NCBI GenBank assembly: GCA_943355045.1
Contig: CALRDY010000011.1
Coordinates: 1-11,962 of the forward strand
DNA length: 11,962 nt
Direction of reading: 5' to 3'
From: Candidatus Nomurabacteria bacterium
GTDB lineage: Bacteria > Patescibacteriota > Minisyncoccia > Phycocordibacterales > Phycocordibacteraceae
The notes beneath the pieces are model-generated. The model saw nothing but the letters and a program-made list of their open reading frames with translations. It had not been told where the DNA came from and made no database searches. Each line of letters begins with the position of its first letter. Positions within the stretch are counted from its first letter, which is position 1. Both the position numbers and the translations under genes were made by a program. Below, one piece after another: positions 1,717-7,872 of this stretch.

Positions 1717-1754
1717 TATCCACAACTTGTCGCTATAGCGACAAGTTGTGGATA
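1717..1754. repeat. 38-bp perfect palindrome A upstream of the Cas2/PaaX-like gene
   Basis: A perfect inverted repeat with no spacer, centred between 1735 and 1736 on TATA. The half site reads TATCCACAACTTGTCGCTA. It ends 10 nt before the TAGAAT box of the next gene and would overlap that gene's -35 region. A second palindrome of identical length and nearly identical sequence lies at 2387-2424 on the other side of the gene. The position fits an operator bound by a symmetric dimer, possibly autoregulation by the Cas2/PaaX-like protein. A mobile palindromic repeat is the alternative. Confidence 0.9.
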
Positions 1755-2449: not shown

Positions 2450-3088
2450 ATGAGATACATGCTCGGCGTGGATGAAGCGGGCAGAGGCCCTTTGGCGGGG
2501 CCGGTGTCGGTCGGGGTGGTTGCCGTACCGGAGGGATTCGATGTTGCGCAGGAGTTTCCGGGCGTTGCGGATTCGAAAAAACTCTCGGAAAAGAAACGGG
2601 AAAAGATTTTTGAAATGTTGGAAACCCGCGCCGCTCTGGGCGACGCGCGTTTCGTCGTCGAATTTGAAAGTGCCGAAACGATCGATAGGGAAGGCATCGT
2701 GCCCGCAGTACGCCGCGCGCTTGCGCGCGGCGTACGTACTCTTGCCCCGTTAGAGACAAGTCGTCGAGAGACGACTGGCGCCGTGTCCGGCGCGTCTCTA
2801 ACGGGGCTTGCTCCATCCGCCGCCAACACCTTTGTATATCTTGACGGGTCATTGCGCGCGCCGTCCGAATACTCCCAAGAAACCATCATCCATGGTGACG
2901 CACTCATCCCGATTATCTCGCTCGCGTCCATTGCGGCGAAGGTCCTCCGCGACCGGCTTATGGTTGAGCTTGCGGCGCAGTACCCCGAGTACGGCTTTGA
3001 AAAACACAAAGGCTACGGCACCAAAGCGCACTACGACATACTCGCAAAATGCGGCCCCTGTGCCATCCATCGCCGCTCCTTTCTATAA
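2450..3088 (+). CDS. rnhB: Ribonuclease HII
   Basis: 212 aa. RNase HII cuts the RNA strand of RNA-DNA hybrids, including single ribonucleotides and Okazaki primers in DNA. Motifs run in family order: GVDEAGRGPLAGPV (D8, E9), DSKKLSEKKRE, FVYLDG (D132), HGDALIPIISLASIAAKV (D150), then YGFEKHKGYGT and a C-terminal IHRRSF. All four acidic active-site residues are present. The ATG at 2450 lies 6 nt after TATAAT and gives a normal family N terminus. Residues 99-120 are a 22-residue insertion relative to E. coli RNase HII, encoded by a 64-nt palindromic element plus 2 nt (see repeat at 2744-2807). It sits before the strand carrying D132, probably in a surface loop, so activity may persist. Confidence 0.96.
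   Translation: MRYMLGVDEAGRGPLAGPVSVGVVAVPEGFDVAQEFPGVADSKKLSEKKREKIFEMLETRAALGDARFVVEFESAETIDREGIVPAVRRALARGVRTLAPLETSRRETTGAVSGASLTGLAPSAANTFVYLDGSLRAPSEYSQETIIHGDALIPIISLASIAAKVLRDRLMVELAAQYPEYGFEKHKGYGTKAHYDILAKCGPCAIHRRSFL
2708..2735. repeat. 28-nt hairpin within rnhB, next to the three-way-junction element
   Basis: GTACGCCGCGCGC, loop TT, GCGCGCGGCGTAC: a perfect 13-bp stem with a 2-nt centre. It encodes the normally conserved helix after GIVPAV, so it may be GC-rich coding sequence that is symmetric by chance. It ends 8 nt before the 64-nt element. Confidence 0.7.
2744..2807. repeat. 64-nt three-way-junction palindromic element inserted in frame in rnhB
   Basis: The outer stem is GCCCCGTTAGAGAC (2744-2757) paired perfectly with 2794-2807 (14 bp). 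Inside are two perfect hairpins. The first is AGTCGTC, loop GAGA, GACGACT (2759-2776). The second is GCGCCG, loop TGTC, CGGCGC (2778-2793). Only A2758 and G2777 are unpaired at the junction. TT lies on both sides (2742-2743 and 2808-2809), like a 2-bp target duplication. Removing 66 nt restores ACT CTT GCT CCA in frame and the usual RNase HII length. The structure is read directly; mobility is inferred. Confidence 0.85.
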
Positions 3089-5649: not shown

Positions 5650-7872
5650 ATGTTGAAGCGATTAGAGGTTGTCGGATTTAAGTCATTTGCCAAGAAGACG
5701 GTCTTGGACTTTTTGAGTTCCACGACGGCGATCGTCGGGCCGAACGGGTCGGGCAAGAGTAATGTCGCGGAAGCGTTCCGCTTCGCGCTTGGCGAACAGT
5801 CGATGAAGAGTATGCGCGGCAAGCGCGCAGAGGATCTCATTTTCAACGGTTCGCACTCGGTACCACGCGCAAATCGCGCGGCGGTCGCCATCGTTTTTGA
5901 TAATCGACCGAAGGGCGCGCATCGCCCATTCAAGATCGACTTCGACGAAGTCGTGATCGAGCGAGCGGTGCTGCGCGACGGTACGAGCGAGTACTCCATC
6001 AATGGTTCCAAGGTGCGCCTGCGCGACATCGAGGAGCTTCTTGCGGGTGCGAACATCGGCGAGACAGGGCATCACATTATTTCTCAAGGGGAGGCGGATC
6101 GGATACTGCTCGCGTCGCCGCGCGACCGCCGCGCGATGCTCGAAGACGCGCTCGGGCTCAAGATCTACGAATTCAAGAAACAGGAGGCTGAGAAGAAGCT
6201 CGGAAAGACCGAAGAGAATATCGGCCAGATCAATTCGCTCCGGCGGGAGCTTGCGCCGCATCTGCGCTTCCTTGAGAGCCAGGTAAAGAAGCTTGAACGC
6301 GCGGATTCCCTGCGTACCGAACTCGTCGGTCTCGCGCAGACGTATTTTGCAATTGAAGATGCGTATCTGGCGCACGAAAAAGAAAAAGTCGCCGGAGAAA
6401 AACGAGACGCGGCGGAGCGGCTCGCGCAAGCGACTGCCGAACTTTCAGCTATCGAAGAGCGCGCGACGACCGATGCCGAGGGCGTAAAGCACCTCGACCT
6501 CGTGCGTCGGACGGAGCGCGAAGTCGAGCGTGTCGGCGGCGAGCGCGGGACTCTTGCGCGCAGCCTTGGGCGGGTCGAGGGCGCGCTTGCAGCGGCAAAG
6601 GAGCGCAGTGCGCGGGTCGCGCGCGAGCCGTATGCGAAAGTGCCGCGCGAGGATCTCTCGGCGCTCGCGCGCGAGATCGAGAAGCAGGCAGAGGAGGCGA
6701 CGACACCCGAAGCGATCTCTGCGGCGCTCTCCGCGATACGGAAAGCGGTAACGGCATTTGTCGGCCGGTTCATCGCCCCGGCCGACGACCTGCTCGCTGA
6801 CGAAGAGCGCGCCGCGTACGCGCTCGAGAACGAGCGGACGGAACTCCTCGCGAAGGACGCACGTTTCTCTGAAGAGCTCGAGCGGACGAAGTCTGCGCTT
6901 GCGCGGAGCCGCGAGGCCATGACCGCACATGACGAGACGGGTCGCGAGCTGCGCCGTCGCATCCTCGATCTTGCGCAGGCAAAAGCGCACGAAGAGGGTT
7001 CCGTTGCGAAGAGTGGTGCGCGCGAATACGAACTCAATTTGCTTTCCGAATCTCTTGAGCGCGAGAAGGGCGAAGTGCTCGCGCTCGGCGGCATCGCTAC
7101 CGTCTCGTATGCGCCGCTCGCTCAGCTGCCTGCCGAAGATCGCCAGACGCAGGATGCGCGCAAGCGCACGCTTGAGCGCACGAAAATCCGCCTCGAAGAG
7201 GCGGGCGGCACGGGCGAAGACATCCGCCAGGAGCATAAAGAAGTCTCTGAGCGCGAAACTTTCCTCGCGACCGAGCTCGAGGATCTCGCGAAATCGGCGG
7301 CGGGTCTGCGGGCGCTCATCAGCGATTTGGATACAGAGCTCGGCAAGCATTTCTCCGAAGGTCTTGCGAAGGTCAATGCGTCGTTTAGCGAATACTTCGC
7401 GCTCATGTTCGGCGGCGGCAGCGCGCGTCTCGCGCTCGAAGAAGCAGAGGAGCCGGAGGAGGGCTCTCTGGCATACGCCGAAGAAGAAACCGATGAAGCG
7501 CCGAAAGAAAAAGAACGGCTCGGCATCGAGATTGCGGTCAATCTGCCGAAAAAGAAAGTGCGCTCACTCATGCAGCTCTCGGGCGGCGAACGTGCGCTCA
7601 CGTCTATCGCGCTCATCTTTGCGATGAGTCAGGTAAACCCGCCGCCATTCCTTATCCTCGACGAGACCGATGCTGCGCTCGATGAGGCGAATAGCCGCCG
7701 CTACGGCGACATGATCGAAAATCTGGCGAAGAAGTCTCAGCTCATCGTCATCACGCACAACCGCGAGTCGATGAGCCGTGCGAACACGCTCTACGGCGTT
7801 ACTATGGGCGGCGACGGAGTAAGTAAGTTGCTATCGGTAAAATTTGAAGAGGCTGTAAGTGTCGCAAAGTAG
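5650..7872 (+). CDS. smc: Short SMC-family chromosome segregation ATPase, no evident hinge
   Basis: 740 aa, against roughly 1150-1200 for bacterial SMC. SMC proteins form ATP-driven DNA-loop complexes that organise chromosomes. The N-terminal head has GFKSFAKKT and the Walker A motif GPNGSGKSN (30-38), then an ISQGEADRIL stretch. Charged, Ala/Glu-rich coiled coil fills about 165-360 and 385-590. Between them lies only a short helical segment (about 345-385, including AISAALSAIRKAVTAFVGRF) with neither an SMC hinge nor a CxxC zinc hook. The C-terminal head has the signature LSGGERALTS (from L643) and Walker B FLILDETDAALDEAN (D671, E672). Both ATPase halves are intact, so it should bind and hydrolyse ATP, but dimerisation must differ from classical SMC. 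The frame is open throughout, so it is not a broken gene. A diverged duplicate of the last codons follows the stop. Confidence 0.93.
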   Translation: MLKRLEVVGFKSFAKKTVLDFLSSTTAIVGPNGSGKSNVAEAFRFALGEQSMKSMRGKRAEDLIFNGSHSVPRANRAAVAIVFDNRPKGAHRPFKIDFDEVVIERAVLRDGTSEYSINGSKVRLRDIEELLAGANIGETGHHIISQGEADRILLASPRDRRAMLEDALGLKIYEFKKQEAEKKLGKTEENIGQINSLRRELAPHLRFLESQVKKLERADSLRTELVGLAQTYFAIEDAYLAHEKEKVAGEKRDAAERLAQATAELSAIEERATTDAEGVKHLDLVRRTEREVERVGGERGTLARSLGRVEGALAAAKERSARVAREPYAKVPREDLSALAREIEKQAEEATTPEAISAALSAIRKAVTAFVGRFIAPADDLLADEERAAYALENERTELLAKDARFSEELERTKSALARSREAMTAHDETGRELRRRILDLAQAKAHEEGSVAKSGAREYELNLLSESLEREKGEVLALGGIATVSYAPLAQLPAEDRQTQDARKRTLERTKIRLEEAGGTGEDIRQEHKEVSERETFLATELEDLAKSAAGLRALISDLDTELGKHFSEGLAKVNASFSEYFALMFGGGSARLALEEAEEPEEGSLAYAEEETDEAPKEKERLGIEIAVNLPKKKVRSLMQLSGGERALTSIALIFAMSQVNPPPFLILDETDAALDEANSRRYGDMIENLAKKSQLIVITHNRESMSRANTLYGVTMGGDGVSKLLSVKFEEAVSVAK

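Follow-up and report, generated by a model that had tools for sequence, protein, structure and literature searches.

A palindromic element inserted in frame in rnhB of a Candidatus Nomurabacteria genome, its relatives in several phyla and a candidate GIY-YIG nuclease partner

MITEs are short elements with terminal inverted repeats and a target duplication, matched by a larger coding element with similar ends, and their usual partner is a DDE or HUH transposase. REP/REPIN sequences are small palindromes mobilised in trans by RAYT, a Y1 HUH transposase. Penelope-like retroelements are mobile and carry a GIY-YIG endonuclease, while GIY-YIG nucleases in general are, to our knowledge, known from repair, restriction and homing, and not as sole transposases. 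Rickettsia palindromic elements (RPEs) are approximately 150 bp long and inserted in frame (PMC10969869). In rRNA genes of CPR bacteria, GIY-YIG insertions matching no intron were described at poorly conserved sites, together with mostly short (<200 bp) uncharacterised inserts (PMC11270868).

The window analysed here is a stretch of 11,962 nt, contig C11 of a Candidatus Nomurabacteria genome of 452,166 bases in 51 contigs (87.78% complete). It carries a 62-nt palindrome in rnhB that belongs to a repeat family resembling MITEs: the copies are short, with terminal inverted repeats, a target duplication and a larger coding element with similar ends, and perfect 13-nt arms, a CTTG duplication and empty sites (rnhB, gatB) were found. 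Unlike MITEs, which depend on DDE or HUH transposases, the candidate partner is a GIY-YIG nuclease, the interior often has a conserved branched fold, and the lengths keep the reading frame. REP/REPIN sequences are likewise small palindromes, but the GTAG or CGTC tag of REP elements (PMC3733652) was not seen at the ends of this family, a duplication is present, and the candidate partner is a GIY-YIG nuclease, the only kind of ORF found between matching ends 150-6000 nt apart. GIY-YIG homing endonucleases and the CPR rRNA inserts share the nuclease superfamily; homing endonucleases differ from the present elements, which are not part of an intron, occupy many unrelated sites and are bounded by inverted repeats with a target duplication, and homing to one cognate allelic site is ruled out by the many different flanks and host genes. 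The CPR rRNA inserts of PMC11270868 are possibly the same family, with which their position outside introns and at poorly conserved sites would agree. In contrast to Penelope-like retroelements, there is no reverse transcriptase and the whole element is about 0.28 kb. No description of the family was found in the open-access literature, preprints lying outside that scope. The features of the locus are as follows.

2450..3088, + strand: rnhB (RNase HII), 212 aa including the insert (ORF; Pfam PF01351)
2741..2744, + strand: target-site duplication CTTG, left copy (direct repeat; empty-site comparison)
2745..2806, + strand: palindromic element, 62 nt, three-way junction (folding; empty site in relatives)
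2745..2757, + strand: left terminal inverted repeat CCCCGTTAGAGAC (most frequent arm in the examined copies of 55-71 nt)
2759..2776, + strand: inner hairpin 1, 7 bp, loop GAGA, arms 2759-2765 and 2770-2776 (folding; equivalent hairpin covaries across copies)
2778..2793, + strand: inner hairpin 2, 6 bp, loop TGTC, arms 2778-2783 and 2788-2793 (folding; equivalent hairpin covaries across copies)
2794..2806, + strand: right terminal inverted repeat GTCTCTAACGGGG (13-bp stem with the left arm)
2807..2810, + strand: target-site duplication CTTG, right copy (direct repeat; empty-site comparison)

The rnhB product scores 116.3 bits against PF01351 in two stretches, the best of which stops at residue 98, directly before the insert. 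The RNA fold of 2730-2820 has an energy of -51.8 kcal/mol (z = -5.98), equalled by 0 of 200 dinucleotide-preserving shuffles, and an Rfam scan of the whole window gave nothing at the gathering threshold. The two perfect hairpins with 4-nt loops and two unpaired junction bases (2758 and 2777) that a sequence-only reading had proposed are borne out by folding. Its 14-bp outer stem holds for the 13 bp of the element, while the outermost pair, G2744-C2807, belongs to the duplication; the element measures 62 nt (2745-2806) instead of the 64 nt first given, and the TT taken as a flank and 2-bp duplication is part of a 4-nt CTTG repeat of the YNNR class. The proposed 66-nt insertion with an intact frame agrees with the measurement, as the element plus one CTTG is exactly 66 nt, or 22 codons gained by rnhB.

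In relatives, the site is empty. A protein search with RNase HII gave a match in 93 of 98 genomes, many of them split around residues 100-119. The segment from ID..GI to LDG.L, measured in 17 of the relatives' 29 rnhB loci, has 36 residues in 12 relatives and 38-51 in five, compared with 58 (36 + 22) in the window, so that the empty sites expected in related RNase HII proteins exist. Once the element and one CTTG are removed, the window DNA aligns gap-free across the junction to all nine relatives displayed, including G002, whose two RNase HII parts flanking the insert are 89% and 93% identical. A second empty site concerns gatB of G002 (L116), with an element at residues ~339-359: many orthologues align as two parts omitting approximately these residues, and some single matches have DNA shorter than the query span by about the insert length. 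These empty sites and the copies found elsewhere sustain the earlier claim that an inserted palindromic element is tolerated in frame in rnhB.

Other symmetrical sequences occur in and around this gene. The rnhB loop differs in length among relatives and is tolerant of inserts, and since several relatives (L006, L007, L008, L011, L013, L015 and L024) carry other palindromic inserts in the same loop, e.g., GAAGTCNGACTTC, the loop is a hot spot where different kinds of insert are tolerated; GAAGTCNGACTTC has eight matches in 1.86 Mb of loci, all within five of those rnhB loci. Just 5' of the element, a perfect 13-bp hairpin lies in rnhB at 2708-2735, and some relatives that lack the element (L003, L016) have DNA resembling it; judged from these sequences, it is probably coding symmetry. 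In addition, perfect 38-bp palindromes with the core CTTGTCGCTATAGCGACAAG are located at window positions 1717-1754 and 2387-2424, on either side of an ORF (1777-2364) with a PaaX_M/Cas2-like domain, and a third, less perfect palindrome of this type stands in the same genome (L037, ~6754-6791) just before a long ORF that by eye resembles a UvrD-type helicase. The CTTGTCGCTATAGCGACAAG palindromes are possibly operators of the PaaX_M/Cas2-like regulator, or another element.

Further copies of the element and its arms were sought in the window's own genome and in relatives, as had been suggested, and were found. With the 62-nt element as query in 55 genomes (E <= 0.001), other copies were identified only in G004 (four) and G013 (one), followed by numerous weaker hits on arms or incomplete copies. 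All 51 contigs of the window's own assembly were covered, and 22 arm pairs are listed there, 18 of them with a 4-nt direct repeat; lengths of 78-80 and 102-118 nt are commonest, one is a 277-nt element, and only the window copy is 62 nt long. A pattern scan of a species-genome collection gave 113 stretches, of which the 80 listed with names come from several phyla: records named Kaiserbacteria and other Patescibacteria, Omnitrophota, Phycisphaerae and other Planctomycetes, Nitrospirae, Deltaproteobacteria/Desulfobacteria, Cloacimonadota and one Nanoarchaeota record, where phyla with a single record are weak evidence because bins can be contaminated. The short pattern had no match in virus contigs. 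The sequence-only reading was thus right in expecting a palindromic repeat family, which extends beyond the lineage to which it had assigned it. Among the unique sites of up to ~150 nt, 118 of 183 have an exact 4-nt repeat and 65 have none, and all 118 repeats are YNNR (a quarter by chance); the 183 sites were gathered with given arms, so that arm conservation is no evidence here, and related sites were counted as independent. Two relatives have 62-nt copies in the same gene (DUF4147/MOFRL) at different places (L062, 3919-3980; L073, 1612-1673), apparently independent insertions as far as their sequences indicate.

The larger coding element was found at 277 nt in the window's genome (L049, 5457-5733) and in G069 (L115, 3285-3561). 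Both have TCCCGTTAGAGAYA ends, TTCA/TGAA repeats and one 94-residue protein (MNPVRD...SLTG), whose first and last residues are encoded by the arms. A total of 2862 proteins match this nuclease at E <= 0.001, among which 91 of the 120 listed begin M.PVR and end L[TS]G, and homologues at E <= 1e-12 exist in 119 of 297 genomes of the order. At the 30 best loci of these 297 genomes, a matching arm pair is present in 27, 271-285 nt apart, with an exact repeat in 14 of the 27 at first-found coordinates. Altogether, 38 loci, including other genomes, yielded 31 unique elements of 265-285 nt, each with one recognised ORF, the GIY-YIG nuclease; exact repeats flank 20 of the 31 (19 of the 20 YNNR), and 11 are without an exact repeat. 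The same layout with somewhat different ends, TCCTGTTAGACC or TCCCGTTAGACC, is found in L298 (Omnitrophota) and L297 (Planctomycetes). At the best Pfam-scoring GIY-YIG genes of relatives, the arm pair was found at 0 of 30 loci, and an earlier motif test on 23 of those 30 gave a single arm-like stretch in one (L241).

The nuclease G000:C19 scores 57.6 bits, above the PF01541 cut-off. Over 35 rows, Y13, Y24, G26, R34 and E70 are invariant and N84 is nearly so; Y13, Y24, R34, E70 and N84 are presumably the catalytic residues of the GIY-YIG nuclease. Its predicted structure has a mean pLDDT of 85.9, and the closest folds in Foldseek are 1zg2 and Slx1-Slx4 (probability 1.00, with no match at E <= 0.001), while 1zg2 is the sole match at E <= 1 in a PDB sequence search (4.7e-5). 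Slx1-Slx4 is concerned with the processing of branched DNA, per the structure entry titles. Plasmid records contained no match at E <= 1e-5, and phage records contained two entries of one Vibrio phage with 38% identity over 76% of the query. Furthermore, the 16 nt on the inner side of the right arm can pair with a stretch in the interior of the element, with a mean of 13.6 of 16 pairs vs 12.3 +/- 0.14 when partners are swapped (29 elements; L297 and L298, without the feature, were left out); fixing the partner by protein motif instead of best match gave the same outcome, reached by 0 of 5000 swaps. Conserved residues are encoded by these stretches too, so the evidence for structure is limited to the excess over swapped partners, part of which comes from relatedness.

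The nuclease elements and the short copies have in common approximately the first ten bases of their ends and the duplication type. We put at roughly three in four the probability that the 62-nt element belongs, as a non-autonomous (MITE-like) copy, to a family with YCCCGTTAGARAY ends and a 4-bp YNNR duplication, in which the GIY-YIG nuclease mobilises both kinds of element. From sequence comparison we infer that the family is mobile and that the short palindromes would be non-autonomous derivatives moved by the nuclease. A GIY-YIG match at E <= 1e-6 was found in 15 of the 16 genomes with short copies, and an arm-flanked nuclease in seven of them (G016, G002, G013, G358, G354, G351 and G350, the last having both arms without an exact repeat). 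Short exact-arm copies are present in 19 of the 297 genomes, and strong homologues (E <= 1e-25) occur in 8 of these 19 vs 34 of the other 278, a moderate co-occurrence with P = 0.002, or 0.006 minus the window's own genome, relatedness being uncorrected.

The most serious competitor, which we consider unlikely, is that the short palindromes owe their movement to another transposase, which perhaps acts on the GIY-YIG elements as well, so that the GIY-YIG gene is a passenger or moves its own element only. Such an enzyme would agree with the end details, which differ (mostly GAGATA in nuclease elements, GARAC in short copies), and with the 9 of 16 short-copy genomes in which no arm-flanked nuclease was found at the loci inspected (30 of 43 listed), including G007 and G004, the latter rich in short copies. 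However, between matching arms 150-6000 nt apart with an exact 4-nt repeat, the finds were limited to the two 277-nt GIY-YIG elements and a pair made up of two short copies, with no larger element carrying another ORF, in loci of up to ~20 kb, a size at which larger ones could be missed; the nuclease's own ends, moreover, are encoded by the arms.

The nuclease-mobilised reading is extended by the sites at which the nuclease elements are found. Start codons stand on both sides of 20 of the 31 elements; in these 20, the nuclease ORF starts at the host ATG upstream (GTG in one case) and has 90-95 codons in 18, and the downstream repeat yields the TGA that is the nuclease stop, overlapping the rebuilt host ATG. 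A start is rebuilt at the right junction in 26 of the 31, 25 of them with an ORF of at least 50 codons, and the same start-plus-ORF test is passed by 215 of 4625 YNNR sites drawn at random from the window's genome, on both strands. Such start-codon placement was seen for 31 of 40 copies longer than 71 nt and 33 of 135 copies of 55-71 nt; this bias may reflect targeting or survival of the least harmful insertions, and both may act.

As a mechanism, the nuclease would recognise the extruded folded ends and cut at their base; action on extruded branched ends is suggested by the closest folds, which include Slx1, a branched-DNA nuclease. The element would then enter a staggered break made at YNNR; the sites found for nuclease-bearing copies are chiefly start codons (A|TGNN), and host repair or replication over the gap is assumed to join the strands. 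Expression of the nuclease would rely on the ATG and ribosome-binding site of the host, its translation would stop at the duplicated TGA, and the host gene would start again from the overlapping ATGA. On balance, we favour the view that this represents a new class of DNA transposon in several bacterial phyla, in which an autonomous element of ~0.27-0.28 kb with a 90-95-residue GIY-YIG nuclease as its sole protein lands in start codons, borrowing the host start and ribosome-binding site, taking its stop from the duplication and rebuilding ATGA, and also moves frame-keeping three-way-junction palindromes.

The interior of the short copies is conserved in shape. Inner pairing, scored at the inner positions of one of four structures with orientation free, is at least 0.85 in 60 of 86 unique 62/65-nt copies vs 0.07% of shuffled interiors given the same freedom; it falls below 0.7 in 15 of the 86, and thus the three-way junction is not present in every copy. 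In the 65-nt class (n = 40), 174 cells changed on both sides vs 59.7 +/- 10.0, with five of five measures beyond all 500 shuffles, and in the 62-nt set (n = 22), 71 vs 20.9 +/- 3.6, with four of five measures beyond all shuffles and 15 of 500 shuffles attaining the fifth (further pair types). For these comparisons, rows were sorted and oriented by fit beforehand; seven poorly fitting 62-nt copies and 17 copies of a second 65-nt class were left out, 21 68-nt copies were unfitted, and the window row, with its 4-nt loops, is slightly shifted relative to the structure applied to the 62-nt set. The comparison of copies shows that the predicted three-way-junction fold is kept by compensatory changes, the inner stems varying in sequence yet pairing. 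A group of 62/65-nt copies (L194, L195, L213 and L230) have the usual arms and a different common interior, ATATTACGAT or its complement, with no fit to the three-way junction.

The lengths of the short copies also relate to the reading frame. Among copies of 60-70 nt, the length is 2 mod 3 in 107 of 129, namely 27 of 49 outside predicted ORFs and 80 of 80 inside them, where copies are in frame by construction of the ORF calling; copies of at least 71 nt have no frame preference (18, 12 and 11 for 0, 1 and 2 mod 3). The first element base of the 80 in-ORF copies is at codon phase 2 in 53 and phase 1 in 27, and never at the third phase, which would place TAG in frame; a predicted start is at most 10 nt away for 13 of the 80. 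For the 107 unique copies of 62, 65 and 68 nt, 3.20 of the six frames are open, vs 2.53 in shuffles. GatB, MraW-type and Mur-ligase genes are among the hosts of inserts. A short copy can survive in a gene, as in rnhB, when its length plus four is a multiple of three.

Action at the RNA level, with the insert cut from the mRNA or hopped by the ribosome and the 4-nt repeat serving as matched take-off and landing codons, has very little likelihood in our judgement. It would suit the covarying three-way junction, the duplication, by which identical bases flank the insert in identical frame, and the hosts of GatB, MraW-type and Mur-ligase kind. Yet an insert removed in this way has no need for frame preservation, against a length plus four divisible by three in 107 of 129, nor for codon phases 1 and 2 in 80 of 80, avoiding an in-frame TAG, although ORF-based calling favours such copies; frame preservation and phase bias together fit plain translation.

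A Rickettsia palindromic element or near relative is scarcely credible. The resemblance lies in palindromic repeats in frame in many coding and housekeeping genes, here rnhB and 80 in-ORF copies of 60-70 nt; however, at 62-68 nt (62 in the window) the element is under half the ~150 bp given in PMC10969869, it has a 4-nt YNNR duplication and a candidate mobilising nuclease as partner, and its relatives appear Kaiserbacteria-like, not Rickettsia. The distinction from RPEs drawn by the sequence-only reading stands on size and duplication. Chance symmetry in an ordinary host loop, for which the variable, insert-tolerant rnhB loop of relatives might speak, is ruled out by the fold (z = -5.98), the exact duplication and the empty sites, and refuted by the copies elsewhere. 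Integron attC sites, considered for the GTTAG..CTAAC ends, have the opposite arm order and were dropped, a 4-nt duplication being present as well.

The novelty of the system depends on its nuclease-only partner and not on the palindrome half, as the in-frame MITE half alone is a variation on a known type; it is subject to the inferred link between the two kinds of element and to the open-access literature. If the proposal is true, a self-mobile element of 0.28 kb with borrowed start codons would rank among the smallest autonomous transposons known and bring their lower size limit very far down, and many of the small GIY-YIG proteins of Patescibacteria would be explained by it. The system would further show how genomes short of room for selfish DNA carry it, in and at the start of needed genes, and how conserved enzymes gain new peptide segments from inserts.
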